Shown here one piece after another: positions 32,650-60,759 of a DNA stretch of 60,905 bases. The notes under the pieces are model-generated. The model did no database searches. It was not told where the DNA came from and worked only from the letters and a program-made list of their open reading frames with translations. This DNA comes from Bacteroidales bacterium. Lineage in GTDB: Bacteria > Bacteroidota > Bacteroidia > Bacteroidales > F082. The position numbers and the translations under genes are program-made. Numbering within the stretch: position 1 is the stretch's first letter; each line of letters begins with the position of its first letter. The stretch spans positions 1 to 60,905 of the forward strand of contig JAFYNJ010000024.1 of NCBI GenBank assembly GCA_017549805.1, in the 5' to 3' direction.

Positions 32650-33420
32650 ATGGGTAAAATCATAGCAATTGCAAACCAAAAAGGAGGCGTAGGCAAGACC
32701 ACCACGGCCATCAACCTTGCAGCCAGCCTTGCCGTCCTCGACCATAAAACCCTACTCATCGATGCCGATCCACAAGCCAATGCCACCTCGGGAGTGGGTT
32801 TCAACCCCAAAGAAATCAACACCAGCGTTTACGAATGCATCATCGACAGGACCGATCCGCACGATGTCATCGTGGAGACCGAGACCCCGAACCTCTTCTT
32901 ATTGCCCGCCCACATCGACCTCGTAGGTGCCGAAATCGAGATGATCAATTTGCCCGAGAGGGAGCAGATGATGCGCAAGACCTTGGCTTCCGTTAAAAAC
33001 GAATACGAATTCATCATTATCGACTGCTCGCCCTCGTTGGGACTCGTCACCGTGAATGCCCTCACCGCTTCCGACTCCGTGATCATCCCCGTGCAATGCG
33101 AGTATTTCGCCTTGGAGGGATTGGGCAAGCTGCTCAACACCATCAAGATCGTGCAAACCCGCCTGAATCCGAACTTGGACATCGAAGGCATCCTGCTGAC
33201 CATGTTCGACACACGTCTGCGCCTATCCAAACAGGTAGTCGAAGAAGTCAAGATGCACTTCCAGGACATGGTGTTCAACACCATCATCAACCGCAACACG
33301 CGACTCGGCGAGGCCCCCAGCTTCGGCAAGACCATCATCATGCACGATGCCGGCTCCATCGGTGCCATCAACTACCTGAACCTGGCAAGAGAAATACTTG
33401 AGAAAAACAATTTGAGATAA
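32650..33420 (+). CDS. parA: Chromosome-partitioning ATPase ParA/Soj
   Basis: A 256-residue deviant Walker ATPase that, with ParB, moves replication origins. The P-loop KGGVGKTTTAINLAASLA lies near residue 11, with Walker B in FIIIDCSPSLG and the DADPQAN motif. The length matches chromosomal Soj proteins. It is first in a plus-strand run parA-parB-DUF5683-dapB; parB begins 31 bases downstream after a heptanucleotide array. The gene order is conserved in many Bacteroidota, which argues for the chromosomal rather than a plasmid system. Confidence 0.96.
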   Translation: MGKIIAIANQKGGVGKTTTAINLAASLAVLDHKTLLIDADPQANATSGVGFNPKEINTSVYECIIDRTDPHDVIVETETPNLFLLPAHIDLVGAEIEMINLPEREQMMRKTLASVKNEYEFIIIDCSPSLGLVTVNALTASDSVIIPVQCEYFALEGLGKLLNTIKIVQTRLNPNLDIEGILLTMFDTRLRLSKQVVEEVKMHFQDMVFNTIINRNTRLGEAPSFGKTIIMHDAGSIGAINYLNLAREILEKNNLR

Positions 33421-33448
33421 AAGATAAAAGATAAAAGATAAGAGATAA
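33414..33448 (+). repeat. Heptanucleotide tandem array (AAGATAA type)
   Basis: Five 7-base units: GAGATAA, three AAGATAA, GAGATAA. The first unit contains the parA stop codon and the last ends 3 bases before the parB ATG. Because 7 is not a multiple of 3, its TAA triplets fall in all three frames. Confidence 0.9.
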
Positions 33449-33451
33449 AAC

Positions 33452-34372
33452 ATGCCTGACAACAATAAGAAAAGAGGATTGGGCCGTGGATTGGACGCCA
33501 TCCTCCAAAGTCCCGAGACCGACATCACCAGCCGCGACATCAGCGGTGACTACGTAGCCGGCGCCGTGGCCGAGATCGACATCAATCTCATCGAGGCCAA
33601 CCCCTTCCAGCCCCGTACCGAATTCGACGAGGCCGCGTTGGAAGAGTTGGCACAATCCATCAAGGAACAAGGCGTCATCCAGCCCGTCACGGTGCGCAAA
33701 CTCGGCTACAACCGCTACCAGCTGATTTCTGGAGAACGCCGTCTCAGGGCCTCCAAGCTTGCCGGGCTGTCGAAGATTCCGGTTTTCATCCGCATCGCCA
33801 ACGACGAGCAAATGCTAGAACTCGCCTTGATCGAGAACATCCACCGTGAGAACCTCAACGCCCTCGAGGTGGCCATCTCCTACCAACGGCTCATCGACGA
33901 GTGCAATCTCACCCAGGAACAGCTGAGCGAGAAATTGGGGAAAAACCGCTCCACCATCGCCAACTTCCTGCGTCTGCTGAAACTACCCGCCGAAATCCAG
34001 ATCGCCTTGCGCGACGGTCATATCTCCATGGCCCATGCCCGCGCCCTGATCAACGTCGAGGACAAGGAAACCCAACTCAAGCTCCTCCAGCAGATCATCG
34101 AAGAGGAACTCAACGTGCGCCAGACCGAAGAGCTCGCCAGCAATGCCAAGAATGCCATCAATCCCGTTGTCAGTAGCGGCGACAGCAAGGAACAACGCAA
34201 GCAAACCAACTACCTCCCCGACCACTTCAAGGCTCAGATCAAGACCCTTTCGCAAGCCTTGAACACCAAGGTGAAGGTAAAACGCAACATCAAAGGACAA
34301 GGCAGTGTCGTGATCGACTTCAAAAACGAAGCCGAATTCGACCGCATCATCGAACTCTTCAACAAGCACTGA
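33452..34372 (+). CDS. parB: Chromosome-partitioning protein ParB
   Basis: A 306-residue CTP-dependent clamp that loads at parS. It has the N-terminal ParA-interacting stretch KRGLGRGLDAIL, a ParB/Srx CTPase domain (about 45-135, with NPFQPR and ISGERRLRASKLAGL), the LALIENIHRENLN signature, a central helix-turn-helix (LGKNRSTIANFLRLL, about 150-200) and a C-terminal dimerisation domain. No parS palindrome was seen by eye in this window. Its stop codon abuts the start codon of the DUF5683 gene. Confidence 0.95.
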   Translation: MPDNNKKRGLGRGLDAILQSPETDITSRDISGDYVAGAVAEIDINLIEANPFQPRTEFDEAALEELAQSIKEQGVIQPVTVRKLGYNRYQLISGERRLRASKLAGLSKIPVFIRIANDEQMLELALIENIHRENLNALEVAISYQRLIDECNLTQEQLSEKLGKNRSTIANFLRLLKLPAEIQIALRDGHISMAHARALINVEDKETQLKLLQQIIEEELNVRQTEELASNAKNAINPVVSSGDSKEQRKQTNYLPDHFKAQIKTLSQALNTKVKVKRNIKGQGSVVIDFKNEAEFDRIIELFNKH

Positions 34373-34951
34373 ATGTCACGCCGCGCCTCACACCTCTGCC
34401 TTCTGCTCCTCGGAGCCCTGATGCTGCTTTCGGCGGCATCGGCACAGGCACAGGATGTGAAGAAGGAACACAGCGCCAAAAAGGCCGGATATCTGTCCAT
34501 CCTTCCTGGAGCGGGTCAGATTTACAACGGAAAATGGTGGAAAGTACCCATCATCTATGCGGGATTTGGCGGCATCGGATACATGGCCTACAGCAACTAT
34601 TCCGACTATAAGACATTTCTCACCGCCTACAAGATCAAGACAGGCAACCTTGATGTGGGAGACACCCAAAACGAGACCGCCATCCAACTTACCGAATACT
34701 ACCAAGCCAGCCAGTTGCAGAGCTACAAGGACTCCTATCGCCGCGACTTCGAGCTGTATTGCATCATTCTTGCCGCTTGGTACGGCCTCAACATCGTCGA
34801 TGCCATCGTTGACGGGCATCTTTACACCTACGACATCAGCGACGACTTAAGCCTTCAGATCGACCCGTGCCTACAATCCAGCCAAGCACCCTATTTACCT
34901 ATAACCCAATACGCTCAAGTCGGCTTATCCTTTAACCTTAATTTGAAATGA
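34373..34951 (+). CDS. DUF5683 membrane protein
   Basis: A 192-residue exported membrane protein. The N-terminal signal (about 1-27) is followed by KKAGYLSILPGAGQIYNGKWWKVPIIYAGFGG, the DUF5683 signature. A second hydrophobic segment lies near 130-147 (CIILAAWYGLNIVDAIVDGH), and the C-terminus has an outer-membrane-like end. The family is regularly encoded between parB and dapB in Bacteroidota and its function is unknown. It starts on the base after the parB stop and its stop overlaps the dapB start by 4 bases. Confidence 0.88.
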   Translation: MSRRASHLCLLLLGALMLLSAASAQAQDVKKEHSAKKAGYLSILPGAGQIYNGKWWKVPIIYAGFGGIGYMAYSNYSDYKTFLTAYKIKTGNLDVGDTQNETAIQLTEYYQASQLQSYKDSYRRDFELYCIILAAWYGLNIVDAIVDGHLYTYDISDDLSLQIDPCLQSSQAPYLPITQYAQVGLSFNLNLK

Positions 34952-35658
34952 AAATCGCACTTTTAGGATACGGAAAAATGGGCCACGAGGTAGAGAAAAA
35001 CGCCCTCGCCCAAGGTCATGAAATCGTAGTCACCATCGACAACGAGCAGGAATGGAACGAACGCATCGACCTTCTGAAAAAGGCCGATGTGGCCATCGAG
35101 TTCAGTCAGCCCGACCAGGCTTTCGCCAACATCAACCGTTGTTTCGACCTGCATCTGCCCATTGTGGTAGGCACCACCGCCTGGTATGACCGTCTTGACG
35201 AAGTCAAACAGCGCTGCAATAGCGAAGGCCAGAGCCTGTTTTACGCGCCCAATTTCAGCATTGGGATGAACATGGTCTTCATGTTGAACAAGCAGCTTGC
35301 GCGTTTTGCCGAGCAATACGGCTATTCCCTCAAAGTAGCCGAAACCCATCATATCCACAAGCTTGACAAACCCAGCGGCACAGCGGCCAAGCTTGCCAAC
35401 GACATTCTTGCCGAGAGCGGCCGTTACCAGCGCTGGAGCATTGAAGAGCCCTTCCCTTCCGACACCCTCCCCATCGAGGTCACCCGTGAAGGCGAAGTGT
35501 TCGGCATCCACAGCATCACCGCCTTATCCTCCGCCGACCGCATCACCCTTACACACGAAGCCTTCAGTAGAGAAGGCCTGGCCAAAGGCGCTCTTGCCGC
35601 CGCTCAATTCCTCATTGGCAAAACTGGGGTGTTTACTATGGTAGACTTGTTTTGTTGA
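34948..35658 (+). CDS. dapB: 4-hydroxy-tetrahydrodipicolinate reductase
   Basis: A 236-residue NAD(P)H-dependent reductase in lysine and diaminopimelate synthesis, supplying peptidoglycan precursors. The Rossmann start is MKIALLGYGKMG. The catalytic and substrate motif AETHHIHKLDKPSGTA contains the general-acid histidine and lysine. The C-terminus has RLTLTHEAFSREGLAKGAL-like family residues. It is slightly shorter than E. coli DapB (273), as is common in Bacteroidota. ATGA overlap with the DUF5683 gene indicates translational coupling. It ends the parA operon at a terminator. Confidence 0.95.
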   Translation: MKIALLGYGKMGHEVEKNALAQGHEIVVTIDNEQEWNERIDLLKKADVAIEFSQPDQAFANINRCFDLHLPIVVGTTAWYDRLDEVKQRCNSEGQSLFYAPNFSIGMNMVFMLNKQLARFAEQYGYSLKVAETHHIHKLDKPSGTAAKLANDILAESGRYQRWSIEEPFPSDTLPIEVTREGEVFGIHSITALSSADRITLTHEAFSREGLAKGALAAAQFLIGKTGVFTMVDLFC

Positions 35659-35663
35659 AAACT

Positions 35664-35699
35664 AATAGCCGTCAAAACTAACCCTGACGGCTATTTTTA
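35664..35699 (+). terminator. Rho-independent terminator after dapB
   Basis: Stem AATAGCCGTCA/TGACGGCTATT (11 bp, 10-base loop) followed by TTTA. It begins 5 bases after the stop. Confidence 0.92.
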
Positions 35700-35700
35700 T

Positions 35701-35708
35701 TATTTTTG
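35701..35708 (+). promoter_or_regulatory. -7 box of the lepB-ftsK operon
   Basis: TATTTTTG directly behind the dapB terminator, about 53 bases before the lepB ATG. Confidence 0.55.
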
Positions 35709-35714
35709 CAAAAT

Positions 35715-35733
35715 AATAACCGCGATGGTTATT
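35715..35733. repeat. Short inverted repeat in the lepB leader
   Basis: AATAACC-GCGAT-GGTTATT, a perfect 7-bp inverted repeat placed where transcription of the lepB operon would begin. It could be an operator or a 5' mRNA hairpin. Confidence 0.5.
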
Positions 35734-35761
35734 CGTTAGTATTGAAATAACTCATCAAAAC

Positions 35762-37276
35762 ATGTCACTCATACTTTTCATCATCCTTGTCCCGGCCCTG
35801 TTCACCATCCCGATTGCATTCACTTGGAAACAGTTCAAAGCCGCAGGACAAAAGGGCTGGCAGGCCTTTATCCCTTATCTCAACATTTTTGTGCTGCTGA
35901 AGATCATCAAGAAACACAAGAAATTCTGGTGGTGGTTCTTCATCATCTTCCCGTATATCAACATCTTCATGCTCTTCCTGATGCTCATCGAGTTAGGCAA
36001 ATGCTTCGGCCGGTTCAAGGTTTGGGAGGAGTTCATGGCCGCCGTGTTGCCTTTCATCTTCTTCCCGCTCATCGTAAAGGATGACCCGTATCAAGACCCT
36101 GCCACCGCCAAGCGGCCCAAGAAATCGACTGCCCGCGAGTGGTTCGACGCCATCGTCTTTGCCGTAGTGGCCGCCTTGATCATCCGCACCTACGTATTCG
36201 AAGCCTTCACCATCCCGACCTCCAGCATGGAGAAATCACTCTGCGTGGGCGACTATCTTATAGTAAGCAAAATCCATTACGGACCCAAGCGTCCCAACAC
36301 ACCTTTGTCGTTCCCCTTCGTGCATAATACCCTACCTTTTAGCACTACCAAGAAATCCTACCTTGAATGGATCAAGTTGCCTTATCACCGCCATCCCGGT
36401 GTCTCCACCATCAAGCGCAACGACCCCATCGTGTTCAACTATCCCGCAGGCGACACCGTATGCGACAAGTTCCAGAGTAGTGTGAGCTATTACGACCTCA
36501 TTCGTGAATACGGCCGCAAACGGGTTTGGACCGACCATGAAGCCTTTGGCAACGTCATCGCCCATCCCGTGGACAAGCGCGAGAATTATGTGAAGCGCCT
36601 CATCGGCATGCCCGGCGACAAACTCCAAATCATCGACGGCGTTGTGTATATCGACGGAGAGAAGGGCTTCCAACCCGAAAACATGCAATTCAGTTATACC
36701 GTCACCACCACCGGCAATGGCATCAACAAACGAATCCTTGAGAAATACAACATCAGCGAAGGCTATCGCGGTGCCAACCCCAATGAAGCCATCCTGAACA
36801 TCAGCGAAAAGGTGGCCGAAGAGCTGCGTCAGCACTCCTTCATCACTTCGGTGGAGCGCAACATCACCCCTGCCGGCGCCGACCTGCGTCCCGAGATCTT
36901 CCCACACCGTCCCGACCTCTATCCCTGGAATGTTGACAACTACGGTCCCATCGAGATTCCCAAGAAAGGCCAGACCGTGAAACTCACCTTGGAAAACCTG
37001 CCTCTTTATGAAAGGATCATCCATGCCTACGAGCTCCACGACCTGCAAGTCAAAGGCGACCAAATCCTGATCGACGGACAACCTGCCGACAGCTACACCT
37101 TCGAAATGGACTACTACTGGATGATGGGCGACAACCGCCACAACTCCGCCGACTCTCGCTACTGGGGCTTCGTCCCGGAAAACCATATTGTCGGCAAAGC
37201 CGTGTTCGTATGGCTCTCCCTTGACAAGGAAAAAGGCGGCATCCGCTGGAAACGCATGTTCCGTATCCCAAAATAA
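35762..37276 (+). CDS. lepB: Signal peptidase I
   Basis: A 504-residue inner-membrane serine peptidase that removes Sec/Tat signal peptides. It has three N-terminal hydrophobic segments (about 1-20, 36-75 and 92-105), then the anchor near 128-148. The catalytic dyad is Ser155 in FTIPTSSMEKSL and Lys278 in NYVKRLIGMPGD, and the GDNRHNSADSRYWGFVPENHIVGKA box is intact. It is much longer than E. coli LepB (324) because of the extra N-terminal membrane region and an insertion around 320-420, both usual in Bacteroidota. It is first gene of an operon running through ftsK. Confidence 0.95.
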   Translation: MSLILFIILVPALFTIPIAFTWKQFKAAGQKGWQAFIPYLNIFVLLKIIKKHKKFWWWFFIIFPYINIFMLFLMLIELGKCFGRFKVWEEFMAAVLPFIFFPLIVKDDPYQDPATAKRPKKSTAREWFDAIVFAVVAALIIRTYVFEAFTIPTSSMEKSLCVGDYLIVSKIHYGPKRPNTPLSFPFVHNTLPFSTTKKSYLEWIKLPYHRHPGVSTIKRNDPIVFNYPAGDTVCDKFQSSVSYYDLIREYGRKRVWTDHEAFGNVIAHPVDKRENYVKRLIGMPGDKLQIIDGVVYIDGEKGFQPENMQFSYTVTTTGNGINKRILEKYNISEGYRGANPNEAILNISEKVAEELRQHSFITSVERNITPAGADLRPEIFPHRPDLYPWNVDNYGPIEIPKKGQTVKLTLENLPLYERIIHAYELHDLQVKGDQILIDGQPADSYTFEMDYYWMMGDNRHNSADSRYWGFVPENHIVGKAVFVWLSLDKEKGGIRWKRMFRIPK

Positions 37277-37300
37277 CCAATTCTTTGAAGACAAATCACA

Positions 37301-40434: not shown

Positions 40435-40455
40435 TCACCAAACCGAGTGAGAGGC

Positions 40456-41751: not shown

Positions 41752-42562
41752 AATACAGAAATTCACCAAAGCCGTTGGGCGCATCATCAGGCACCCCTAC
41801 CTGCTCAACCTCGTCCTACAGGATGAAAGCAGCAACAAGGAGGAGGTCATCCGCAAGTATGGCTTGAACGACGGGTTGCCCCTGCTGGAGATCAACGAGC
41901 TGTTTCCCGATTTCACGGAGGTTGCCAATCCATACGCCTACCTTTCGGGAGCTACCATGCCCATTGACATTGCCTTGTTGCGTGCGCTGGCGAAACGCTA
42001 TGAGGTGAAGGACTATTTCGAAATTGGCACTTGGCGCGGCGAGAGTGTAGCCAATTTGGCCGAAGTCGCCCAACATTGCGTCACCTTCAACCTGCCGAAA
42101 GAAGACATCGTCAAGCTGACTGGCAACCAACAGTATGCCGACCTGCATGGTTTCTTCAGCAAAGACCTGAGCAACGTTGAACAACTTTACGGCGACTCCC
42201 AAACCTTCGATTTTACACCGCATTTCGGCAAATACGACATGGTTTTTGTGGATGGCAACCACCATTATGAGAGCGTGAAGAAAGACACCGAGACCGCCTT
42301 CAAGCTACTGAAAGGCGAACGCAGCATCATTGTTTGGCACGACTACGGCCTCGATCCTGAAACCATCCGATGGGACGTGATGGGTGCCATCCTCGACGGT
42401 GCACCTGCCGAGAAACGCAAACACATCTATCATATCTCCAACACCCTGTGCGCCGTGTATCTGCCGGAGGATTTCCCCACCCATAAGCTTGTCCCATACG
42501 AGACACCACATAAATACTTCGAAATCGAAATCAAAACCCATCCTCTCATTCCTAATTCCTAA
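41744..42562 (+). CDS. Class I SAM-dependent methyltransferase (Methyltransf_24-like)
   Basis: A 272-residue cytoplasmic protein starting at ATG 41744, inside the last codons of the flippase gene. It has an N-terminal helical region, then motif I FEIGTWRGESVANLAE (about 113-128), YDMVFVDGNHHYESVKKD (motif with acidic metal or SAM ligand, about 180-197) and SIIVWHDYG. This layout fits Methyltransf_24, the group found with glycan biosynthesis clusters. It may modify a sugar or the glycan end before export. Its stop codon sits in the second unit of a heptanucleotide array. Confidence 0.8.
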   Translation: MNKIQKFTKAVGRIIRHPYLLNLVLQDESSNKEEVIRKYGLNDGLPLLEINELFPDFTEVANPYAYLSGATMPIDIALLRALAKRYEVKDYFEIGTWRGESVANLAEVAQHCVTFNLPKEDIVKLTGNQQYADLHGFFSKDLSNVEQLYGDSQTFDFTPHFGKYDMVFVDGNHHYESVKKDTETAFKLLKGERSIIVWHDYGLDPETIRWDVMGAILDGAPAEKRKHIYHISNTLCAVYLPEDFPTHKLVPYETPHKYFEIEIKTHPLIPNS

Positions 42563-42576
42563 CTCCTAACTCCTCA
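42549..42576 (+). repeat. Heptanucleotide tandem array (CTCCTAA type)
   Basis: Four 7-base units: TTCCTAA, TTCCTAA, CTCCTAA, CTCCTCA. The stop codon of the methyltransferase gene lies in unit 2 and the array ends 6 bases before the next ATG. Confidence 0.88.
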
Positions 42577-47060: not shown

Positions 47061-47070
47061 CGATTTTTTA

Positions 47071-47098
47071 GAAGATAGAAGGCAGAAGAAAGAAGAAA
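47071..47098. repeat. Heptanucleotide tandem array between divergent promoters
   Basis: Four 7-base units, GAAGATA, GAAGGCA, GAAGAAA and GAAGAAA, placed 10 bases from the minus-strand -7 box and 6 bases from the plus-strand -7 box. It therefore spans the -33 regions of both genes. Confidence 0.8.
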
Positions 47099-47104
47099 GA
47101 ATTG

Positions 47105-47112
47105 TATTTTTG
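47105..47112 (+). promoter_or_regulatory. -7 box of the aminotransferase gene
   Basis: TATTTTTG, 40 bases before the ATG at 47153. Confidence 0.6.
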
Positions 47113-47152: not shown

Positions 47153-48361
47153 ATGAGCGAAATCATCCTCTCGAACAGAGTATTGAACATGGCCGAATCC
47201 GCAACCTTGGCCATGACCAACAAGAGCCGCGAGCTGAAAGCCCAAGGCATCGATGTCATCAGCCTGAGCATCGGCGAGCCCGACTTCAACACGCCCGTAT
47301 CGGCCAAGCAAGCCGGTATTGACGCCATCAACAACAACGACACCCATTATCCGCCTGTGCCTGGCACACCCGCACTGCGCAAAGCCATCGCCAACAAACT
47401 GAAACGTGACAACGACCTCGACTACAAGGATACCGACATCCTTGTCTCAAACGGTGCCAAGCAAGCCATCAACAATGTGTTGCTGGCCATCGTCAACGAC
47501 GGCGACGAGGTCATCATCCCCGCCCCGTTCTGGGTCTCCTACCCTGAGATGGTAAAACTGAGCGGCGGCGTACCTATCATTGTCAAAAGCGACTTCGCCC
47601 ACGACTTCAAGATCACGGCTGAACAGCTGGAGAAGGCCATCACGCCCAAGACCAAGGCCTTGCTCATCAACACGCCCTGCAACCCCAGTGGTAGCGTTTT
47701 CACCAAGGCTGAGCTCACCGCCATCGCCGAGGTGCTGAAGAAATATCCGAACATCATCATCATCTCCGATGAAATCTATGAGTTCATCCAATATGAACAG
47801 AAGCACGAGAGCATGGGACAGTTCGAATTCCTGAAAGACCGTCTCGTCCTTGTCAACGGCGTTGCCAAGGGTTATGCCATGACGGGTTGGCGTATCGGCT
47901 ACATCGCCGCTCCGCAAGCCATCGTGAAGGCTACCAACAAGATTCAAGGCCAAATCACCTCCGGCATCTGCACCATCGCCCAAGCCGCCGCTGCCAAGGC
48001 CATGGAACTGAGCCCCGAGAACTCGAAGGAGATCCAGGAGATGCTGGCCGCCTTCCGTCACCGCCGCGACACCTTTGTGAAGCTGTTGAACGAGATTCCA
48101 GGCGTGAAGTGCAACACGCCCGCCGGCGCTTTCTATGTATTCCCCGAAGTGAAGTCATACTATGGCAAGACCGATGGTGAGACCGTCATCAAGGGTAGCG
48201 ACGACCTCTGCATGTGGCTGCTTTACAACGCCCATGTAGCCTGCGTGGCCGGCAATGCCTTCGGCAACGACGATTGCATCCGCCTCTCCTATGCCACCTC
48301 CGAGGACAAGCTCGTGGAGGCTGTAAGAAGAATCAAGGAAGCGCTGAAGAAGCTGAGATAA
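47153..48361 (+). CDS. Aspartate aminotransferase-type PLP enzyme
   Basis: A 402-residue class I/II aminotransferase of the I-gamma (bacterial AspB/AAT) group, interconverting aspartate and 2-oxoglutarate with oxaloacetate and glutamate; prephenate or aromatic substrates are possible in this subgroup. Visible motifs are SIGEPDFNTP, YPPVPGTPALRKAIA, NTPCNPSGSVFTKAEL, ISDEIYEF and the Schiff-base lysine K239 in NGVAKGYAMTGWRIGY. The length is normal. Its stop codon is the start of a heptanucleotide array leading into the heptose kinase gene. Confidence 0.93.
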   Translation: MSEIILSNRVLNMAESATLAMTNKSRELKAQGIDVISLSIGEPDFNTPVSAKQAGIDAINNNDTHYPPVPGTPALRKAIANKLKRDNDLDYKDTDILVSNGAKQAINNVLLAIVNDGDEVIIPAPFWVSYPEMVKLSGGVPIIVKSDFAHDFKITAEQLEKAITPKTKALLINTPCNPSGSVFTKAELTAIAEVLKKYPNIIIISDEIYEFIQYEQKHESMGQFEFLKDRLVLVNGVAKGYAMTGWRIGYIAAPQAIVKATNKIQGQITSGICTIAQAAAAKAMELSPENSKEIQEMLAAFRHRRDTFVKLLNEIPGVKCNTPAGAFYVFPEVKSYYGKTDGETVIKGSDDLCMWLLYNAHVACVAGNAFGNDDCIRLSYATSEDKLVEAVRRIKEALKKLR

Positions 48362-48389
48362 AAGATAAAAGATAAAAGTTAAGAGTTGG
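48355..48389 (+). repeat. Heptanucleotide tandem array (AAGATAA/AAGTTAA type)
   Basis: Five 7-base units: GAGATAA, AAGATAA, AAGATAA, AAGTTAA, GAGTTGG. Unit 1 holds the aminotransferase stop codon. Unit 5 holds the TTG that is one possible start codon of the next gene and the first base of the alternative GTG. Confidence 0.88.
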
Positions 48390-51072: not shown

Positions 51073-51076
51073 CAGC

Positions 51077-51979
51077 ATGAAAAAAGTACAAGTCGTTATC
51101 AGCAACCAATTCAACCCTTATTTAAATCTGGCTGTGGAGACCTATCTCACCGACCATCAGGAGGAGGGCGTGGTGACGATGTACCTTTGGAAGAACGAGC
51201 GCACCGTGGTTATCGGACTCAACCAAAACCCTTTCTCGGAATGCGATGTGAAGCGTTTAAATGAGGAAGGTGGGCATTTAATGCGCAGGCGCACAGGCGG
51301 TGGTGCCGTTTATCACGACCTCGGCAATCTCAACTTCTCTTTCATCGCCGACAAAAACGATTACGATGTTCGGAAACAACAATCCGTCATCCAAGAGGCA
51401 TTGAAGACCTTTGGCTTGGAAGCAGAGATCTCCGGTCGCAACGACCTGCTTTGCCAAGGCAGGAAATTCTCCGGCAATGCCTTTTTCAACGGAACCGACA
51501 ACAATCTGCATCACGGCACCATCTTGATCAAGACCGATGGCGAAATGATGCAGCGCTATCTCACTGTGAACAAGGCAAAACTGCAAAAACACGGCGTGAA
51601 GTCCGTCGCCAGTCGCGTGGTAAACCTATCGGAACTGGCTGATGTCACCTCCGAAAACATCGTGGAACCGCTGATCCAAGCCTTTGAAAAGGTTTACGGG
51701 ATGAAGGCTGTATGTGTTGACTTTGAGACCTTGGCCGACTTGGACGAAGTAAAGGAAACCGTTTCAAGGATTTCTTCACATGATTACCTCTATGGCAAGT
51801 GGGAGCATTTCCATGCTGTCAAGAAAGCCCAGTTCCCATGGGGCAATGTGGAAGTCGGCTTCGACATGGATGAAAACACCCATGAAATCAAGAATCTCGT
51901 CATCGCCACGGATAGCCTGAATACTGAAATTGCCGACATTTGCAACGACATCTTCGGAATGTTAGACTTTAAGATTTAA
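51077..51979 (+). CDS. lplA: Lipoate-protein ligase A
   Basis: A 300-residue cytoplasmic enzyme that adenylates lipoate and attaches it to E2 or GcvH proteins. It shows the BPL_LplA_LipB fold with RRRTGGGAVYHDLGNLNFSFI, GRNDLLCQGRKFSGNAFF and the catalytic-lysine region HHGTILIKTDGEMMQRYL. The C-terminal accessory domain (about 230-300) is present. It has its own promoter directly behind the tRNA terminator. Its stop lies in the first unit of a heptanucleotide array that leads into miaB. Confidence 0.93.
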   Translation: MKKVQVVISNQFNPYLNLAVETYLTDHQEEGVVTMYLWKNERTVVIGLNQNPFSECDVKRLNEEGGHLMRRRTGGGAVYHDLGNLNFSFIADKNDYDVRKQQSVIQEALKTFGLEAEISGRNDLLCQGRKFSGNAFFNGTDNNLHHGTILIKTDGEMMQRYLTVNKAKLQKHGVKSVASRVVNLSELADVTSENIVEPLIQAFEKVYGMKAVCVDFETLADLDEVKETVSRISSHDYLYGKWEHFHAVKKAQFPWGNVEVGFDMDENTHEIKNLVIATDSLNTEIADICNDIFGMLDFKI

Positions 51980-52009
51980 CTTTTAACTTTTATCTCTCAT
52001 CTTTTATCT
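51975..52009 (+). repeat. Heptanucleotide tandem array (TTTAACT/TTTATCT type)
   Basis: Five 7-base units: TTTAACT twice, TTTATCT, CTCATCT, TTTATCT. Unit 1 contains the lplA stop and the array abuts the miaB ATG with no spacer. The units are the reverse complement of the AGATAAA/AGTTAAA types at 33414 and 48355. Confidence 0.9.
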
Positions 52010-54609: not shown

Positions 54610-54632
54610 AAAAAATATCTTCCAGATAATTG

Positions 54633-54659
54633 TTTGTATCAAGAAAAGTTGTAATTTTG
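54633..54659 (+). promoter_or_regulatory. Promoter of rpsT
   Basis: TTTG at 54633-54636 and TAATTTTG at 54652-54659. The leader to the ATG is about 43 bases. Confidence 0.6.
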
Positions 54660-54702
54660 CAGCCCGATTAGAAAAGAAGAAACAAAAAGAGATATTTAGA
54701 AA

Positions 54703-54957
54703 ATGGCAAATCACAAATCTTCACTCAAGAGAATTCGTCAAACCGAAAAAAGACGTCTGCACAACCGTTACTATGCCAAGTCAATGCGTAACGAAGTCAG
54801 AAAATTCAGAACTATTACCGACAAGTCAGAGGCTGAAAACCAACTGCCCAAGATGTATTCTATCATCGACAAGGTGGCCAAGCGCGGCATCATCCACAAG
54901 AACAAGGCCGGTAATCTGAAGTCAAAGCTTTCGAGATACACCGCCAAGTTGGCTTAA
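54703..54957 (+). CDS. rpsT: 30S ribosomal protein S20
   Basis: An 84-residue basic, helical primary-binding protein of 16S rRNA. It has [35 protein letters not shown] and the C-terminal [22 protein letters not shown], which are S20 signatures. It is monocistronic, with its own promoter and terminator. Confidence 0.97.
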
Positions 54958-54983
54958 ATAAGAGTTTTTTCATCATAATGTTG

Positions 54984-55014
54984 ACCTCCTCTATTCTTTA
55001 GGGGAGGTTTTTTT
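54984..55014 (+). terminator. Rho-independent terminator of rpsT, immediately before radC
   Basis: ACCTCCTC pairs with GGGGAGGT (one G-T pair) around a 9-base loop, followed by seven T. It ends 3 bases before the radC start codon. The left stem also contains CCTCC, the reverse complement of a Shine-Dalgarno, and the right arm carries GGGGAGG 11 bases before the ATG. Confidence 0.85.
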
Positions 55015-55017
55015 GGT

Positions 55018-55719
55018 ATGATCAGCAACGAACACAAAACCATCAAGCATTGGGCTGCCGACGACCGCCCGCGCGAAAAGATGATGGCCAAAGGCAAAGG
55101 TGCTCTCAGCAACGCCGAACTCATCGCCATCCTGATCGGGTCGGGACCCGGCGGACAATCGGCCGTGGAACTGGCCAGGGAGGTGCTAAGTGCCGTGAAC
55201 GACAATCTCTACGACCTGTCGAAACTCAGCATCGACGAATTGAAACAGCACAAAGGCATCGGCGAAGCCAAGGCCATCAGCATCATGGCCGCCCTTGAAC
55301 TCGGTCGGCGATGGAGCATCACCTCCCCAGATGAGCGCCACACCATCGTAAGCAGCAAGGATGCCTATGACTGCTTCCTTCCCCTCATCGACGATCCCTC
55401 CAAGGAACATTTCTTGGTGGCCTACCTCAACCATGGCAATAAGATCATCAAAGTGGAACGTATCAGCACGGGCAGTATCACCAATACGCTGGCCGATCCC
55501 AAGGTCATCTTCAAGAAAGCCCTCTTAAAGGAAGCCACCGCCATCATGCTATGCCACAACCATCCATCAGGCGTTGCCCGACCAAGCACCGATGACAAGC
55601 AACTGACCCAAAAACTGGTGAAGGCGGGAAAAATAATGGACATCGCGGTCATCGACCACATCATTATCGGAGAAAATTCGTATTTTAGCTTCGCCGAACA
55701 AGGATTGATGAATTATTGA
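55018..55719 (+). CDS. radC: RadC-family JAB-domain protein
   Basis: A 233-residue protein. The N-terminal part (about 1-85) has the RadC helix-hairpin-helix region (DRPREKMMAKGKGALSNAELIAILIGSG, LKQHKGIGEAKAISIMAALEL). The C-terminal MPN/JAB metalloprotease-like domain has CHNHPSGVARPSTDD (the HxHPSG...D motif). Its biochemical role is unsettled; the DNA repair label is historical. It begins directly behind the rpsT terminator with no promoter box in between, so expression may depend on read-through. wecB follows after 4 bases. Confidence 0.92.
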   Translation: MISNEHKTIKHWAADDRPREKMMAKGKGALSNAELIAILIGSGPGGQSAVELAREVLSAVNDNLYDLSKLSIDELKQHKGIGEAKAISIMAALELGRRWSITSPDERHTIVSSKDAYDCFLPLIDDPSKEHFLVAYLNHGNKIIKVERISTGSITNTLADPKVIFKKALLKEATAIMLCHNHPSGVARPSTDDKQLTQKLVKAGKIMDIAVIDHIIIGENSYFSFAEQGLMNY

Positions 55720-55723
55720 CAAC

Positions 55724-56866
55724 ATGAAGATAGTAACCATCATCGGAGCCAGACCGCAGATCATCAAGGCGGCGGGACTGAGCAGAGCCATCAGGACACA
55801 CTATGCCGACCGCATCAAAGAAGTCATCGTGCACACTGGCCAACACTATGACGAAAACATGTCGCAGGTGTTCATCGACGAATTGGGTATTCCCAAACCC
55901 GATTATAATCTGCATGTGGGTTCAGCAAGCCATGGTGTGCAGACCGCACGCATGATCGAGGGCATCGAGCAGATCCTGCTTGACGAAAAGCCCGACTACA
56001 TCGTGCTCTACGGCGACACCAATTCCACCTTGGCCGGTGCCGTGGCCGCCTCCAAGATCCATGTGCCCATCGTCCACATCGAGGCGGGACTGCGATCTTT
56101 TAACAAGAGCATGCCAGAAGAGATCAACCGCATCGTGTGCGACCATTGTTCCACACTACTCTTCTCACCCACCCAAACCGGATTCGACAACCTGGTCAAG
56201 GAAGGCTTCAAGTCCAACAACCAAAGACCTTACACCATCGACAACCCCAAGGTGTTCCATTGCGGCGACATCATGTTTGACAACAGCCTGTTCTTCTCGC
56301 AAATCGCCGATCAAAAAGTCGATGTGCTGAAACGGTTGGGATTGAACGACAAGCCTTTTATCCTCTCCACCCTGCACCGCAACAACAACACCGACGACAA
56401 GATGCGGTTGACCAGCATCGTCGAGGCCATCATGGAAGTGGCGCAAACCATCGCGGTTGTGCTGCCCATGCATCCAAGAACGCGCAAAATGACGGAACTG
56501 CTAATGGAGAAAGACCTGCTGGACCGTTTGTTCCACCACGACAACATCCAAATCATCGAACCCGTCTCCTTCCTTGAAATGATCCAACTTGAAAAGCATG
56601 CCAAGCTGGTGATGACCGATTCGGGAGGCGTTCAAAAGGAGTCCTATTTCTTCAGAAAACCCTGTGTGATTCTGAGACCCGAAACCGAGTGGGTGGAAAT
56701 TGTGAAGACCGGAGCCGCCACCTTGGTGGATGCCGACAAGGACGGCATCATTTCGGCATGCCGACAGTATTTGCAACATCCACCCGTTGACTTCCCAGAG
56801 ATCTTTGGTGACGGCCATGCAGCAGAGTTCATGCTGGAACAGATGATTCAGAATAATTGTGATTGA
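55724..56866 (+). CDS. wecB: UDP-N-acetylglucosamine 2-epimerase (non-hydrolysing)
   Basis: A 380-residue GT-B-fold enzyme converting UDP-GlcNAc to UDP-ManNAc for surface glycans. Visible are VTIIGARPQIIKAAGLSRAI, HTGQHYDENMSQVFIDELGIPKPDYNL, VYGDTNSTLAGA-like (LYGDTNSTLAGAVAAS), HIEAGLRSFNKSMPEEINR and the C-terminal VMTDSGGVQKESYFFRKPCV. The catalytic Asp/Glu and His residues of the family are all in these blocks. It is translated right after radC and just before the esterase gene. Confidence 0.95.
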   Translation: MKIVTIIGARPQIIKAAGLSRAIRTHYADRIKEVIVHTGQHYDENMSQVFIDELGIPKPDYNLHVGSASHGVQTARMIEGIEQILLDEKPDYIVLYGDTNSTLAGAVAASKIHVPIVHIEAGLRSFNKSMPEEINRIVCDHCSTLLFSPTQTGFDNLVKEGFKSNNQRPYTIDNPKVFHCGDIMFDNSLFFSQIADQKVDVLKRLGLNDKPFILSTLHRNNNTDDKMRLTSIVEAIMEVAQTIAVVLPMHPRTRKMTELLMEKDLLDRLFHHDNIQIIEPVSFLEMIQLEKHAKLVMTDSGGVQKESYFFRKPCVILRPETEWVEIVKTGAATLVDADKDGIISACRQYLQHPPVDFPEIFGDGHAAEFMLEQMIQNNCD

Positions 56867-56867
56867 C

Positions 56868-57809
56868 ATGAAAACAAGGCATTTTCTATTTGCAGCCATT
56901 CTGCTGCTCTGCGGAATTTCCCTGACAGCACAGGAAAAGACCACTTATCCTTTCGTTGAACGCGACTCCACTCTTTATCTGGACGTTTACCGTCCCACCG
57001 TGCAACGGGCCGACAAAGCCGCGGTAATCACGGTTTTCGGCGGCGGTTTCATCATCGGGACTCGCGACGACAAGTTACAGCAAACGACCGCTGAGCTCCT
57101 TGTGGAGCGTGGCTTCACTGTCATCAGCATCGACTACCGATTGGGATTGAAAGACCAAGCCATGGTGGAGAAATACCAAGGCCTGACCAAGTTGGACAAA
57201 CTCTTCCAATACTGCATTGACATTGCCACTGAAGACTGTGCCGAAGCCGTTGCTTGGGTGTGCGCCCACGCCGAAGAGTTGGACATCGACCCCTCCAAGC
57301 TGGTGTTGGAAGGCTGTTCGGCGGGTGCCATCACAGTGCTACAGCTGGACTATTGCCGTTCCAACGGCTTAAAGCAAGCAGCAGCCCTCCCCGAGGGATG
57401 GAAGCCAGCTGCCGTGGTACCCTATTCCGGCGGAGTGATGTGCCGTAAAAGTGAATTGAAATACGCCACGGAGCCCGCCCCCACTATGCTAATGCATGGC
57501 ACAAAGGACAAGATCGTGGCTTACAACAGTTTCGGTATTCCCTTTCATTCGAAACTGTTCGGTGCCAACAAGGTGTCCAAGGCCATGGATCGCCAGGGCA
57601 TCCCCCACTGGATTATCCGCTTCGAGGGCATCGGTCACGAGGTAGCCACCTGGCTTCCCGGCTCCGTAGATCTCTTCTGCGGCTTTGTGGATCAGGCCAT
57701 CTCCGGTCGCGTCACCCATCTCGATGCCACCATGACCGACAGCAAGCTCCAGCCCACCGAGTGGACCGACATGGGAGTCCTTAAGATGTACAAACAATCC
57801 TCCAAATAA
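56868..57809 (+). CDS. Secreted alpha/beta-hydrolase (esterase, BD-FAE-like)
   Basis: A 313-residue exported hydrolase. The ATG at 56868 gives signal MKTRHFLFAAILLLCGISLTAQ; a GTG three codons upstream is less likely. The oxyanion-hole motif is VFGGGFIIG. The nucleophile elbow is GCSAGA (G-x-S-x-G), the Asp is in MHGTKDKIV and the His in EGIGHEVA. This resembles BD-FAE-type carbohydrate or feruloyl esterases, but the substrate is unknown. It starts 1 base after the wecB stop, so it ends the radC-wecB run. Confidence 0.87.
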   Translation: MKTRHFLFAAILLLCGISLTAQEKTTYPFVERDSTLYLDVYRPTVQRADKAAVITVFGGGFIIGTRDDKLQQTTAELLVERGFTVISIDYRLGLKDQAMVEKYQGLTKLDKLFQYCIDIATEDCAEAVAWVCAHAEELDIDPSKLVLEGCSAGAITVLQLDYCRSNGLKQAAALPEGWKPAAVVPYSGGVMCRKSELKYATEPAPTMLMHGTKDKIVAYNSFGIPFHSKLFGANKVSKAMDRQGIPHWIIRFEGIGHEVATWLPGSVDLFCGFVDQAISGRVTHLDATMTDSKLQPTEWTDMGVLKMYKQSSK

Positions 57810-57848
57810 AAAATTGTTGCAACCTCTTGTTTATTAGAGAAAAAGCAT

Positions 57849-57856
57849 TATCTTTG
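57849..57856 (+). promoter_or_regulatory. -7 box of the rpsF-rpsR-rplI operon
   Basis: TATCTTTG, with about 56 bases to the rpsF ATG. Confidence 0.6.
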
Positions 57857-57878
57857 CACTCGCTTTTCGAAGCAAGTG
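57857..57878 (+). promoter_or_regulatory. 5' leader hairpin of the rpsF operon
   Basis: CACT-C-GCTT / AAGC-A-AGTG with a TTCG loop and one C-A mismatch, at the very start of the expected transcript. It could be a target for S6/S18 autoregulation, which is known in other bacteria, or only an mRNA-stabilising hairpin. It does not visibly reproduce the published S6-S18 leader. Confidence 0.45.
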
Positions 57879-57912
57879 TAATAAATATTAAATCATTAAT
57901 TATCAGTAAATT

Positions 57913-58263
57913 ATGAATCAGTACGAAACCGTTTTCATTTTAACTCCCGTTTTGTCTGACGATCAGATGAAGGAAGCGGTAAAGAAGTATGAAGATTATC
58001 TGGCCAAAGCCGGCGCAGAAATCGTTCATGAAGAGCACTGGGGAATGCGCAAACTGGCATACCCAATCCAGAAGAAATCCACGGGCTTCTATCAATTGAT
58101 AGAGTACAAAGCCGAAGGAAACGTTATTGCCGATGTCGAGACCGAGTTGAAGCGTGACGAGCGCATCCTCCGTTTCTTGACCGTGAAACTTGACAAGCAC
58201 GCTGTTGCTTACAACGAGAAGAAACGCAAGAAAGCTCAGGAACAAGCTGAAGCTCAAGCCTAA
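57913..58263 (+). CDS. rpsF: 30S ribosomal protein S6
   Basis: A 116-residue ribosomal protein that binds the central domain of 16S rRNA with S18. It has [55 protein letters not shown] and a lysine- and glutamine-rich C-terminal tail typical of Bacteroidota. It is first of three ribosomal genes in the conserved order rpsF-rpsR-rplI. Confidence 0.97.
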
Positions 58264-58289
58264 AGTTTAACCTTTAAAATTCTAGAGAA

Positions 58290-58562
58290 ATGGCACAACA
58301 ACCCAATAACGACATCAAATACTTGACTCCTATCGCAGTCGATACCAAGAGAAAGAAATACTGCCGCTTCAAGAAGAACCGCATCAAGTATATCGATTAC
58401 AAAGACGCCGACTTCTTGCTGAAGTTTGTGAACGAGCAAGGCAAAATTTTGCCCCGTCGCATCACCGGTACCTCAACCAAATATCAAAAGAAAGTTGCAC
58501 AGGCTATCAAGAGAGCTCGTCATCTTGCCCTCATGCCGTTTGTTGCCGATATGTTGAAATAA
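58290..58562 (+). CDS. rpsR: 30S ribosomal protein S18
   Basis: A 90-residue basic protein partnering S6. It has [77 protein letters not shown] in outline, which is the S18 core. The single CRFKK cysteine differs from zinc-binding C+ forms. It lies 26 bases after rpsF. Confidence 0.97.
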
Positions 58563-58564
58563 TA

Positions 58565-58569
58565 GGAGG
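58565..58569 (+). promoter_or_regulatory. Canonical Shine-Dalgarno of rplI
   Basis: GGAGG 7 bases before the ATG at 58577. It fixes the start and rejects the TTG at 58571. Such sites are rare in this window. Confidence 0.75.
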
Positions 58570-58576
58570 ATTGGAA

Positions 58577-59026
58577 ATGGAAATTATTCTGAAACAAGAC
58601 ATTGCCAATTTAGGCTACAAGAACGAAATCGTCACCGTTAAGAACGGTTACGCTCGCAATTATTTGATTCCTAACAAGATGGCCATCCTGGCAACGGAAA
58701 GAAACCGCAAGATGCTTGCTGAAGAGATCCGTCAACAGGCTCACAAGGAAGAGAAGATCAAGAATGAGGCTCTCGACAAGGCCAAGGCTCTCGAAGGCCT
58801 GAAGCTCACCATCGGCGCCAAGGCTGCCGCTACCGGCAAGATCTTCGGTTCTGTCAACTCCATCCAGATTGCCAACGCCATCAAGGAAGCCTGCAATCTC
58901 GAAATCGACCGCAAGCAAATCGTGATGAACGAAGAGGCTGTGAAGGAACTCGGCAACTACAAGGCCAAGATCAAACTTCACAAGGATGTCCAAGCCGAAA
59001 TCGAATTCGAAGTGGTTGCTGAGTAA
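58577..59026 (+). CDS. rplI: 50S ribosomal protein L9
   Basis: A 149-residue two-domain protein at the base of the L1 stalk. The N-terminal domain is MEIILKQDIANLGYKNEIVTVKNGYARNYLIPNKMA. A long connecting helix (about 41-75) and a C-terminal RNA-binding domain (LTIGAKAAATGKIFGSVNSIQIANAIKE) follow. The Shine-Dalgarno at 58565 supports the start. It ends the operon at the terminator at 59055. Confidence 0.97.
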   Translation: MEIILKQDIANLGYKNEIVTVKNGYARNYLIPNKMAILATERNRKMLAEEIRQQAHKEEKIKNEALDKAKALEGLKLTIGAKAAATGKIFGSVNSIQIANAIKEACNLEIDRKQIVMNEEAVKELGNYKAKIKLHKDVQAEIEFEVVAE

Positions 59027-59054
59027 TACAGCAAGACATCTTCAATATTTTAAT

Positions 59055-59086
59055 AAGACTGCCCTGTGGGGTAGTCTTATTTTTTT
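59055..59086 (+). terminator. Rho-independent terminator after rplI, fused to next promoter
   Basis: AAGACTGCCC-TGTG-GGGTAGTCTT (one G-T pair), then A and seven T. The last T is the first base of the following -7 box. Confidence 0.9.
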
Positions 59087-59093
59087 ATCTTTG
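59086..59093 (+). promoter_or_regulatory. -7 box of the rRNA methyltransferase gene, leaderless
   Basis: TATCTTTG ending 4 bases before the ATG at 59098, with its first base in the T-run of the preceding terminator. Confidence 0.55.
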
Positions 59094-59097
59094 CGTC

Positions 59098-59841
59098 ATG
59101 ATTACGAAAAATACCGTCAAGGCCATCCAATCCCTAAAGCAAACCAAGTACCGGAAAGAACTGGGACTTTTCGTTGTTGAGGGAAGAAAATCAGTTGAGG
59201 AGCTTCTCCAGTCATCTTTGGAGACCACTGCAGTGTATGCCACCGAACGATTTCAGCAAGAGCATGGTTTTCACGATGAACGTTTGGAAACGGTAAGCGA
59301 AATGCAGATGGAACAGATGAGCAGTTTTGACACTCCTCCAGGAATCCTTGCAGTGGTTAGGATCCCGAAACAGGACAACATCCAGCATGAAGGCATGATG
59401 TTGGCTTTGGACGGCATTGCCAACCCGGGCAACATGGGCACCATCATCCGCACGGCGGAATGGTTTGGCGTGAAGAACATCGTTTGCAGCGAGGATTGCG
59501 TGGAGATCTGGAATCCGAAAGTAATTCAGGCCACCATGGGATCCCTCTTCAGGATGAATGTGGTTTCAACCGATTTGGAAGGCTTTCTGAAAGAAGCCAA
59601 GGACAAAGGGAAAGCAGTTTATGGTGCTTTGCTGGAAGGAGAGAACATCTTCAAGAAGGATAAATGGGAAGACGGCATCATCGTCATCGGCAGCGAGTCG
59701 CACGGAATTCGAAGCAACATTCTGCCCCTGATTACGCATCCCATCACCATCCCCCGAGCCAAAAATAGCATCACCGAGTCGTTGAATGCATCCATGGCTA
59801 CAGGAATTATTTTAGCCTCTTGGGCTTCGAAGTTATCCTAA
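59098..59841 (+). CDS. TrmH/SpoU-family RNA 2'-O-methyltransferase
   Basis: A 247-residue SPOUT methyltransferase, RlmB-like, acting on rRNA or tRNA. It has an N-terminal substrate-binding domain (about 1-95, with KYRKELGLFVVEGRKSVEELL), then the knotted SPOUT domain: motif 1 GNMGTIIRTAEWFG (GIANPGNMG), motif 2 IIVIGSESHGI, motif 3 PRAKNSITESLNASMATGIIL. The exact target nucleotide cannot be told from sequence alone. It is monocistronic. Confidence 0.92.
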   Translation: MITKNTVKAIQSLKQTKYRKELGLFVVEGRKSVEELLQSSLETTAVYATERFQQEHGFHDERLETVSEMQMEQMSSFDTPPGILAVVRIPKQDNIQHEGMMLALDGIANPGNMGTIIRTAEWFGVKNIVCSEDCVEIWNPKVIQATMGSLFRMNVVSTDLEGFLKEAKDKGKAVYGALLEGENIFKKDKWEDGIIVIGSESHGIRSNILPLITHPITIPRAKNSITESLNASMATGIILASWASKLS

Positions 59842-59848
59842 TTTTTCT

Positions 59849-59856
59849 ATTTTTGC
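59849..59856 (+). promoter_or_regulatory. -7 box of the zinc-ribbon gene
   Basis: TATTTTTG, 26 bases before the ATG at 59883. Confidence 0.6.
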
Positions 59857-59882
59857 ATTGAAACTTCTAAACAATAACTTTT

Positions 59883-60341
59883 ATGGCAACACGTTTTTGT
59901 ACTCAATGTGGACAACAACTTCCTGAAAACACTAGATTCTGTACCAATTGTGGCGCTCCCATTCCTGAAGAGCCACAGACCCAACAAGCATACAGCCAAC
60001 CAAAACCGCAACCAGAGTTTCAGCCAGAACCACAACCTGTGGTCAATCCACAGCCGACTGGACCAAAACCAACGAGTTATCTGGCCTTGGCCATCCTCGC
60101 CACCATCTTTTGCTGTCTTCCTTTCGGTATTGTTTCCATTGTGAAGGCATCCAAAGTGGATAGTTTGTGGAACGCCGGCAGATACATGGAATCTCAAGAT
60201 GCTTCGAGGAAAGCAAGGAATTGGGCAATTGCAGCTATCCTGACTGCTGTTGTAATTGCAATTCTTTACTTCGTATTCATCTTATTGGTTGGAGCCAGCG
60301 CTTTGGGAGGTTGGAGAGAATTACTTGAAGAATTGTCATGA
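59883..60341 (+). CDS. Zinc-ribbon CD225/dispanin-like membrane protein
   Basis: A 152-residue inner-membrane protein. The N-terminal zinc ribbon has FCTQCGQQLPENTRFCTNCG (two CxxC pairs). A Gln/Pro-rich linker with PEPQPE-type repeats (about 33-58) follows, then a CD225-type pair of membrane helices (YLALAILATIFCCLPFGIVSIVKASKV and AIAAILTAVVIAILYFVFILLVGA) joined by the typical GRYMESQDASRKARNW loop. Function is unknown. Its stop overlaps the DUF2752 start (ATGA), a pairing frequent in Bacteroidota. Confidence 0.87.
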   Translation: MATRFCTQCGQQLPENTRFCTNCGAPIPEEPQTQQAYSQPKPQPEFQPEPQPVVNPQPTGPKPTSYLALAILATIFCCLPFGIVSIVKASKVDSLWNAGRYMESQDASRKARNWAIAAILTAVVIAILYFVFILLVGASALGGWRELLEELS

Positions 60342-60700
60342 AAACCAGTTACAAGCTAATCCTATGGATCGTAGGATTAGCTTGTCTTGTATTGATCTAT
60401 TTCCTTTTTGATCCCACCCACAGCCATTTGGCCCCGAAGTGTCCCTTTTGGTTGATGACGGGATATTCTTGTCCCGGCTGCGGCTCCCAGCGGGCTATCC
60501 ATGCTTTTTTGAATGGCCATTTTTGGGAAGGTATCCAATACAATTATCTATTGTTGCCTTCACTGGCATATATCATCTTGTTGACCGTCGCTCCCAAGGA
60601 CGGGAAACTGATCCAAAAACTGACAAGCAGCACAGCTTGTTGGATTTTGTTTTCAGTGTTTATGGCTTGGTGGGTGGTAAGAAACCTGATTGGGATTTAA
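60338..60700 (+). CDS. DUF2752 membrane protein
   Basis: A 120-residue membrane protein with three hydrophobic segments (about 7-24, 68-85 and 95-115) and the DUF2752 signature APKCPFWLMTGYSCPGCGSQRAIHAFLNGHFWEG. The CPGCG cysteines suggest metal or disulfide chemistry. Function is unknown. It is translationally coupled to the zinc-ribbon gene and last before the convergent rRNA operon. Confidence 0.9.
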   Translation: MKTSYKLILWIVGLACLVLIYFLFDPTHSHLAPKCPFWLMTGYSCPGCGSQRAIHAFLNGHFWEGIQYNYLLLPSLAYIILLTVAPKDGKLIQKLTSSTACWILFSVFMAWWVVRNLIGI

Positions 60701-60702
60701 AA

Positions 60703-60730
60703 GGTGAGAGGTGAAAGGTGAAAGGTAGCA
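60703..60730 (+). repeat. Heptanucleotide tandem array (GGTGAAA type)
   Basis: Four 7-base units: GGTGAGA, GGTGAAA, GGTGAAA, GGTAGCA, beginning 3 bases after the DUF2752 stop codon. Confidence 0.85.
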
Positions 60731-60731
60731 C

Positions 60732-60759
60732 CTCTCAACTCTAAACTCTAAACTCTAAA
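60732..60759 (+). repeat. Heptanucleotide tandem array (CTCTAAA type)
   Basis: Four 7-base units: CTCTCAA then CTCTAAA three times. It is separated by one base from the preceding array and ends 3 bases before the rRNA terminator region. Confidence 0.9.

Follow-up and report, generated by a model that had tools for sequence, protein, structure and literature searches.

Heptanucleotide tandem arrays with genome-wide words in a Bacteroidales genome and its congeners

The contig JAFYNJ010000024.1 of assembly GCA_017549805.1, from an uncultured gut Bacteroidales bacterium (GTDB lineage Bacteroidales; F082), analyzed over positions 1 to 60,905 and hereafter called the window, carries tandem arrays of 7-bp units whose sequence differs from one locus to another, which raises the question of whether such arrays arise one by one where they stand or belong to a single repeat family. 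The reading favored here, to which we give about an even chance, is that they represent copies of a partly palindromic repeat family built from heptamers, typical of the genus, that disperses in trans within each genome. With matches scored +1 and mismatches -2 at a given lag and an array threshold of at least 12, the eight arrays of the original prediction were all located with a 7-bp period, seven of them above the threshold and one, 11045-11065, weak with a score of 10. The window held seven arrays at lag 7, two at lag 14 (a multiple of 7), and none or one at each of the remaining lags from 2 to 30, while ten resamplings of a second-order Markov control gave a mean of 0.0 arrays at lag 7. 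Similarly, a scan of 1,020,905 bases (1.02 Mb, 37%) of the window's own genome (G000; 2.73 Mb in 33 contigs) gave 123 arrays at lag 7, 12 at lag 8, 74 at lag 14, and 0-5 at each of lags 2-6 and 9-13, with none at lag 7 in a single Markov control. The predicted dispersed period-7 family with drifting sequence is therefore real.

The words are not free in sequence, as had been supposed, but obey a grammar. Words, gene positions, and strands were counted for 106 own-genome arrays from 861 kb, and the words were aligned by expectation-maximisation on the purine strand. They follow the pattern R-A-R-N-N-N-A, with a purine at positions 1 and 3 in 106/106 arrays, A at position 7 in 104, and A at position 2 in 95. 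They are also shared across the genome: 28 consensus words account for all 106 arrays, and 270 pairs of arrays have a common word compared with 25 in composition-matched shuffles. Lineage dialects were counted by a whole-genome pattern search in 99 genomes of the genus (G numbers; loci are given as L numbers), in which the AGATAAA pattern consisted of three units and overlapping hits were counted, so that the arrays are fewer than the hits. This pattern gave 94 hits in G000, 91 in G025, 104 in G072, 163 in G073, 62 in G037, and 25 in G081; at least one hit was found in 29 of the 99 genomes and zero in 70, and the letter-reversed control gave 0-1 hits. G013 and G026, whose ParB proteins are 92-93% identical, have zero hits. 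The GAATGCK pattern was found in 41/99 genomes, with a maximum of 120 hits in G064 and 0 in the control, and its whole-genome count was zero in G000, G025, and G072; both patterns occur in G073 and G040.

Lag-7 arrays were present in 12/20 sampled congeners, 7/11 from a first set of stretches and 5/9 from a second. No lag-7 array was detected in 14 stretches of 20 kb from 13 genomes that belong to the family but not to the genus or in six stretches of 20 kb from other members of the order, and one of six 20-kb stretches at the class level was positive, with two arrays. Period 7 is strongly preferred and not absolute, since 8-bp units are present in some relatives. For instance, at the junction of the TTCCTAA array (42549..42576, minus strand, purine word TTAGGAA), which overlaps the stop of the upstream gene and precedes a glycosyltransferase-like gene, the units in G072 and G025 are mostly 8 bp long by eye, which argues against the strict DNA-spacing signal proposed earlier.

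Homologous junctions hold different words or no array at all. The AGATAAA array at 33414..33448 (plus strand, purine strand sense) occupies the whole junction from the parA stop to the parB start; the own genome has 31 bp of AGATAAA units past the stop, G025 and G072, whose ParB is 95% identical, have only 3 bp, and 4/54 loci (L026, L035, L037, and L038) have different heptamers by eye. Upstream of an aminotransferase gene, where the window has a GAAGAAA-type array (47069..47101, plus strand; the 47071 junction), the words in relatives are GAATTAA, GAATGCG, GAAGTCA, or GAAGTAA. The next AGATAAA array (48355..48389, plus strand), which runs from the aminotransferase stop to the start of a heptose-kinase-like gene, corresponds in relatives to AGATAAA, AGGTGAA, ATGCGGA, or AGAAGAC with the strand sense unchanged. 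The TTTAACT/TTTATCT array (51968..52009, minus strand, pyrimidine strand sense; the 51975 junction) ends at the miaB start, and relatives have TTCAACT/TTCCACT or CACCTCT there. Relatives with the same junction and no array had been named beforehand as evidence against the family; they occur at parA-parB, whereas at 47071, 48355, and 51975 arrays with other words are kept in several relatives and some relatives have none. Among 16 own arrays with both flanks anchored in G072, a lag-7 array is present at seven sites (three with the same word, one related, and three different) and none was detected at nine, some of which hold other repeats by eye. Because one word recurs across the genome while close relatives have another in the corresponding places, the repeats appear to be dispersed or rewritten genome-wide and not to arise one by one. 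The relatives with the aminotransferase region that carry names are mainly metagenome-assembled genomes titled Bacteroidales or Bacteroidia, many of which name ruminant gut compartments, together with a few others, among them Candidatus Limimorpha equi and records titled Spirochaetales or UBP6.

All arrays are intergenic in the window, as first described, but not in the genome. With gene positions from a gene caller written for this analysis, 25/106 arrays lie inside called genes and 81/106 do not; 1243 of 3499 array bases fall in called genes, which make up 90% of all bases. Of these 25 arrays, five belong to weakly scoring calls (score <50) and three reach the end of a gene. Strand sense follows no rule inside genes (14 pyrimidine-sense and 11 purine-sense arrays). 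The in-gene arrays encode peptides such as LSTLNSQLST. In NCBIfam, five of six array-bearing proteins lie above the curated cut-off, namely, isoleucyl-tRNA synthetase (IleRS), SufS-type cysteine desulfurase, MurE, Mfd (the L194:8070 protein), and NqrA, and the sixth has no match at the strict threshold. Core enzymes such as IleRS bear in-frame loop inserts made of heptamer words, and among the SufS and IleRS orthologues (30 loci each) the loop is short, holds a heptamer array of varying word, or holds an unrelated palindrome, depending on the species. Such protein loops appear as if they were general landing sites. Rickettsia palindromic elements are in-frame hairpin repeats inside protein genes that are absent in some orthologues, features that the SufS and IleRS loops match; those elements are longer and have family consensus sequences, whereas the present ones consist of heptamer arrays that vary in both word and length. 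The unrelated palindromes in the loops of other species (L237-L296) include, by eye, GGCTGCCACAGTGTGACAGCC, CCCCCTTTGCAAAGGGGGA, and a GTCATTGCGAGGA...GCAATCC element.

Words at separate sites of one genome agree. Three loop sites in IleRS and SufS were compared, with a heptamer array in 33/90 cells. The word distance was 1.50 between sites of one genome (n=16), compared with 2.34 for different sites in different genomes and 2.33 for the same site in different genomes, and 6 of 2000 permutations were as low as the within-genome value. With one genome per close group, the distance was 1.42 (n=12) vs. 2.51, a value reached in 0/2000 permutations.

The partly palindromic character is seen in the pairing of arms. 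In 22/23 cases of opposite-strand neighbors at most 40 bp apart (9/9 in the own genome), the purine arm comes first and the pyrimidine arm second, and the words of the purine-pyrimidine pairs differ by 1.23 of 7 positions vs. 2.61 when shuffled over all genomes. A relaxed partner search with the 106 own arrays found 15 with a partner 3' of the purine arm and none with one 5', against a control of about 3.9 per side. When six pairs were folded, three had z < -4, one -3.0, L196 -1.0, and the window pair -2.0. This last pair is a weakly folding cassette (60702-60761) between a DUF2752 gene and the 5S rRNA gene, in which the purine arm AGGTGAA (60702..60726, plus strand) is followed by the pyrimidine arm CTCTAAA (60732..60761, minus strand), the two words differing at 3/7 positions. 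The 5S rRNA gene lies at the end of the window (60803-60905, minus strand), separated by the cassette from the DUF2752 gene.

Turnover was followed in close pairs with 91%-95% identity over aligned parts; MAFFT alignments of more diverged pairs are unreliable, and their indels serve as examples only. Presence and absence resemble insertion: 43 bp of array differ between L172 and L176 and between L171 and L173 (neither in the filtered insertion list), an 81-bp hairpin is in L150 and not in L149, and one hairpin is swapped for another between L117 and L131. Copy number changes at aligned orthologous sites, a check suggested with the original prediction, by a 7-bp unit within (AGTTTAG)n in the 95% identical pair L104/L124 and by 7 bp between G072 and G025 at 51975. 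Over nine pairs, array indels have length 7 in 3/26, and most others are not 7-bp steps. The insertion list comprises 28 insertions from 24 pairs, with lag-7 sequence in six rows (five different insertions), and no consistent target-site duplication was found among these 28; one of the five with lag-7 sequence, 79 bp long (L124), begins and ends with a 7-bp direct repeat. There is also a conserved GAGAC...GTCTC inverted repeat, the middle of which is empty in L149 and L170 and holds different heptamer hairpins in L150, L172, and L176.

Under the favored reading of dispersal in trans, the unit is a 7-bp word with one purine-rich strand, present as single purine or pyrimidine arms or as a purine-then-pyrimidine hairpin with related words. 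New copies and words may arrive when replication or repair switches template from one dispersed array to another, a step that the common period and the hairpins could assist. Slippage would afterward gain or lose 7-bp units and homogenize each array, while selection would purge gene-breaking copies, leaving survivors at junctions, in the open frames of protein loops, and, for some, embedded beside promoters or translation starts; a sequence-specific role at individual sites would not be required. A bolder proposal, which we offer tentatively and hold to be rather doubtful, is that an enzymatic or recombinational process acting in trans writes heptamer words specific to a lineage into hundreds of junctions and enzyme loops and from time to time exchanges a genome's vocabulary for another; dialects would then undergo concerted evolution even though the sites have no sequence homology to one another. 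The searches for Y1 transposase and UG26 reverse transcriptase genes found no driver.

Several results weigh against dispersal in trans. Same-word arrays have multi-unit haplotypes in common no more often than chance predicts (202/300 shuffles reached or exceeded the observed value), so this shuffle test lends no support to block copying and gives no direct sign of a recent event of that kind. Clean insertions are few and have no constant length or target duplication. A second arm is undetectable in 91/106 arrays; 8 of the 22 purine-pyrimidine pairs represent one junction in eight species, the shuffled value of 2.61 mixes genomes, and the contrast of arm words is weaker in the own genome alone (1.78 vs. 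2.55, n=9; 4/500 shuffles as low). The concordance test draws on three sites spread over two genes, with statistics that carry no tree-based correction. Lastly, the likeness of adjacent units and the IleRS arrays, which start on native AAGTTGAAAG codons, fit slippage alone.

Replication slippage as the only process would give each array a nearby seed and an independent drift, with period 7 set by the length of DNA that the polymerase contacts, a proposal made for long simple sequence repeats; we consider this unlikely. It draws on the 7-bp changes in L104/L124 and at 51975, on the IleRS arrays just mentioned, on the prominence of heptamers among long simple sequence repeats as cited in two papers (PMC4679880; PMC4692102), and on the mismatches of 0.89 between adjacent units vs. 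1.25 between distant ones, a likeness that is a sign of slippage. It is already strained by words that are common to many separate loci and absent in congeners, and the concordance of words within genomes, the likeness of inverted arms, and the different palindromes found where arrays would be speak against it as well. The homogeneity and unit number of arrays are explained by slippage alone, whereas dialects shared across loci, the concordance of separate sites, and the relatedness of inverted arms are not. The earlier suggestion of slippage therefore stands for a contributor and not for a sufficient cause at each locus, since words agree within a genome and not at the same site between genomes.

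The arrays might alternatively be sites for trans-acting DNA- or RNA-binding proteins, whose specificity changes between lineages such that selection rewrites all words together, a situation for which PRDM9 offers a comparison. The structured degeneracy R-A-R-N-N-N-A and the conservation of sites and strand sense while words change are in its favor, as is the placement of the AAAGATA/AGAGATA arrays, 11/12 of which are purine-sense within 15 bp of a stop, with 8/12 in addition no more than 7 bp away from the start that follows. This explanation is nevertheless improbable, since one genome has 28 words simultaneously, enzyme loops are a poor place for a regulatory site, and orthologous junctions are often without an array.

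Still less probable is a classical miniature element, in which REP/MITE-like hairpins would be mobilized by a Y1 (RAYT/IS200) or other transposase. RAYT (Y1) transposases are the cognate enzymes of REP/BIME palindromes and are expected in carrier genomes. The purine-pyrimidine hairpins, the presence and absence between close pairs, and a Y1 transposase domain in 70/99 genus genomes agree with such an element, but its ends, lengths, and target duplications are not constant, and a search confined to Y1 among transposase families found no Y1 gene in the array-bearing G037 and G081, which are 90%-complete drafts; Y1 was rejected as a necessary driver. Compared with REP/BIME, which are dispersed short palindromes (PMC3733652), the present repeats also differ in their 7-bp tandem organization.

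It is very improbable that the arrays are cassettes, three-frame stops or spacers, under selection to insulate genes. In favor of this reading, arrays within 15 bp of stops are more often purine-sense than pyrimidine-sense (47 vs. 17), but readthrough alone predicts such a bias; the corresponding numbers near starts are 16 and 21. Four window arrays (33414, 42549, 48355, and 51975) contain the upstream stop codon, as first noted. Stops in every frame, also part of the original prediction, do occur in 66/106 purine strands but are no special property, since shuffling the letters within the unit averages 73, which makes them a by-product of composition and led to the rejection of selection for three-frame stops; the 25 in-gene arrays are likewise contrary to such insulation. 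A telomerase-like reverse transcriptase that writes repeats from small RNA templates, as DRT10 is reported to produce tandem-repeat DNA, is the least credible of all: a full-length UG26-type enzyme is encoded in the own genome, and 13/129 family genomes, all 13 in the array genus, have this enzyme, but each genome has many words and UG26 was not found at E 1e-30 in the array-bearing G050, G062, G078, G092, G051, and G065, so that it was rejected as a necessary driver. The own UG26 gene (PADLOC group; G000:C20:52763-53995; L321 and L323) has a full-length match at E 5e-166, and the gene beside it reads like glmS.

The analogy with known heptamer repeats is supported. In Xanthomonas, 186 and 183 repeats of GGGAATC are reported from two genomes, mostly intergenic and mostly of four units; the flanking genes are for the most part shared by both species, and length and sequence vary extensively (PMC4692102). 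The same paper describes heptameric repeats of Nostoc, GGGGA(C/T)T (PMC4692102). The present arrays resemble those of Xanthomonas in their period, mainly intergenic location, and conserved positions with sequence variation; as described there, however, the Xanthomonas and Nostoc repeats form one G-rich word class with quadruplex propensity. The present arrays differ in having about 28 A/G-rich words in a single genome, words that change at a given site from one relative to another, arms paired in inverted orientation, and copies in coding loops. TAACTGA direct repeats were described in Beggiatoaceae, Cyanobacteria, and five Bacteroidetes, mostly intergenic, with 2-6 units in the main genome, often beside start codons, and with 7-nt-step indels between two close cyanobacteria (MacGregor, 2015; PMC4679880). 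They are alike in being mostly intergenic heptamers with 7-bp steps, but that account gives one fixed word, with related heptamers seldom repeated, whereas the present family has many. Direct pairs of GGGAATC and of TAACTGA both number 0 in 1.02 Mb of the own genome.

Among long simple sequence repeats (LSSRs), the heptanucleotide class is prominent and slippage was proposed (Mrazek et al., 2007, as cited in PMC4679880 and PMC4692102). The present arrays belong with heptameric simple sequence repeats and LSSRs in having 7-bp tandem units above chance, mostly intergenic, and 7-bp-step copy changes, of which L104/L124 is one clear case together with G072/G025 at 51975; as cited, those repeats are without genome-wide word dialects or replacement. 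In the one open library searched, only PMC4679880 linked heptamer repeats with Bacteroidetes, and no search was aimed at dialect-like replacement. Heptameric intergenic repeats are thus already known, and those of Xanthomonas keep their positions while varying in sequence. The new features, as far as the literature searched shows, are multi-word dialects, differing words at homologous sites, inverted arms whose words are related, and copies lying in frame within loops of core enzymes. Bacterial heptamer repeats are attributed to slippage in the papers cited (PMC4679880; PMC4692102); if words do spread in trans, such repeats need more than slippage. A genus with 99 genomes constitutes a natural experiment, with homologous sites, known relatives, and changing words, and the dispersal of short repeats in bacteria becomes a directly testable question.

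The weak array, three units of TAAATTC/TTAATTC (11038..11065, no strand assigned), lies between open reading frames pointing apart. The sequence TATTTTTG (47105..47112, plus strand), read 4 bp past the GAAGAAA-type array, fits the TAnnTTTG -7 promoter box of Bacteroidota. Rfam gave one tRNA and one 5S rRNA on the window and nothing more. In the own assembly, two of the initial 41 stretches, from two contigs, have an identical 6.5 kb (L003 1-6541 and L194 13460-20000) that contains no array, and there are two identical SufS genes; both are consistent with the contamination value of 7.58% of the assembly. A 965-aa DNA polymerase III alpha-like protein (5385-8282, minus strand) with PHP, alpha, finger, and HHH_6 domains is possibly a second, DnaE2-type polymerase that could bear on repeat slippage. 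The window encodes at 19934-26254 a 2106-aa protein that matches SpvB, FG-GAP, RHS-repeat, and a C-terminal Ntox23 and looks like a polymorphic toxin.

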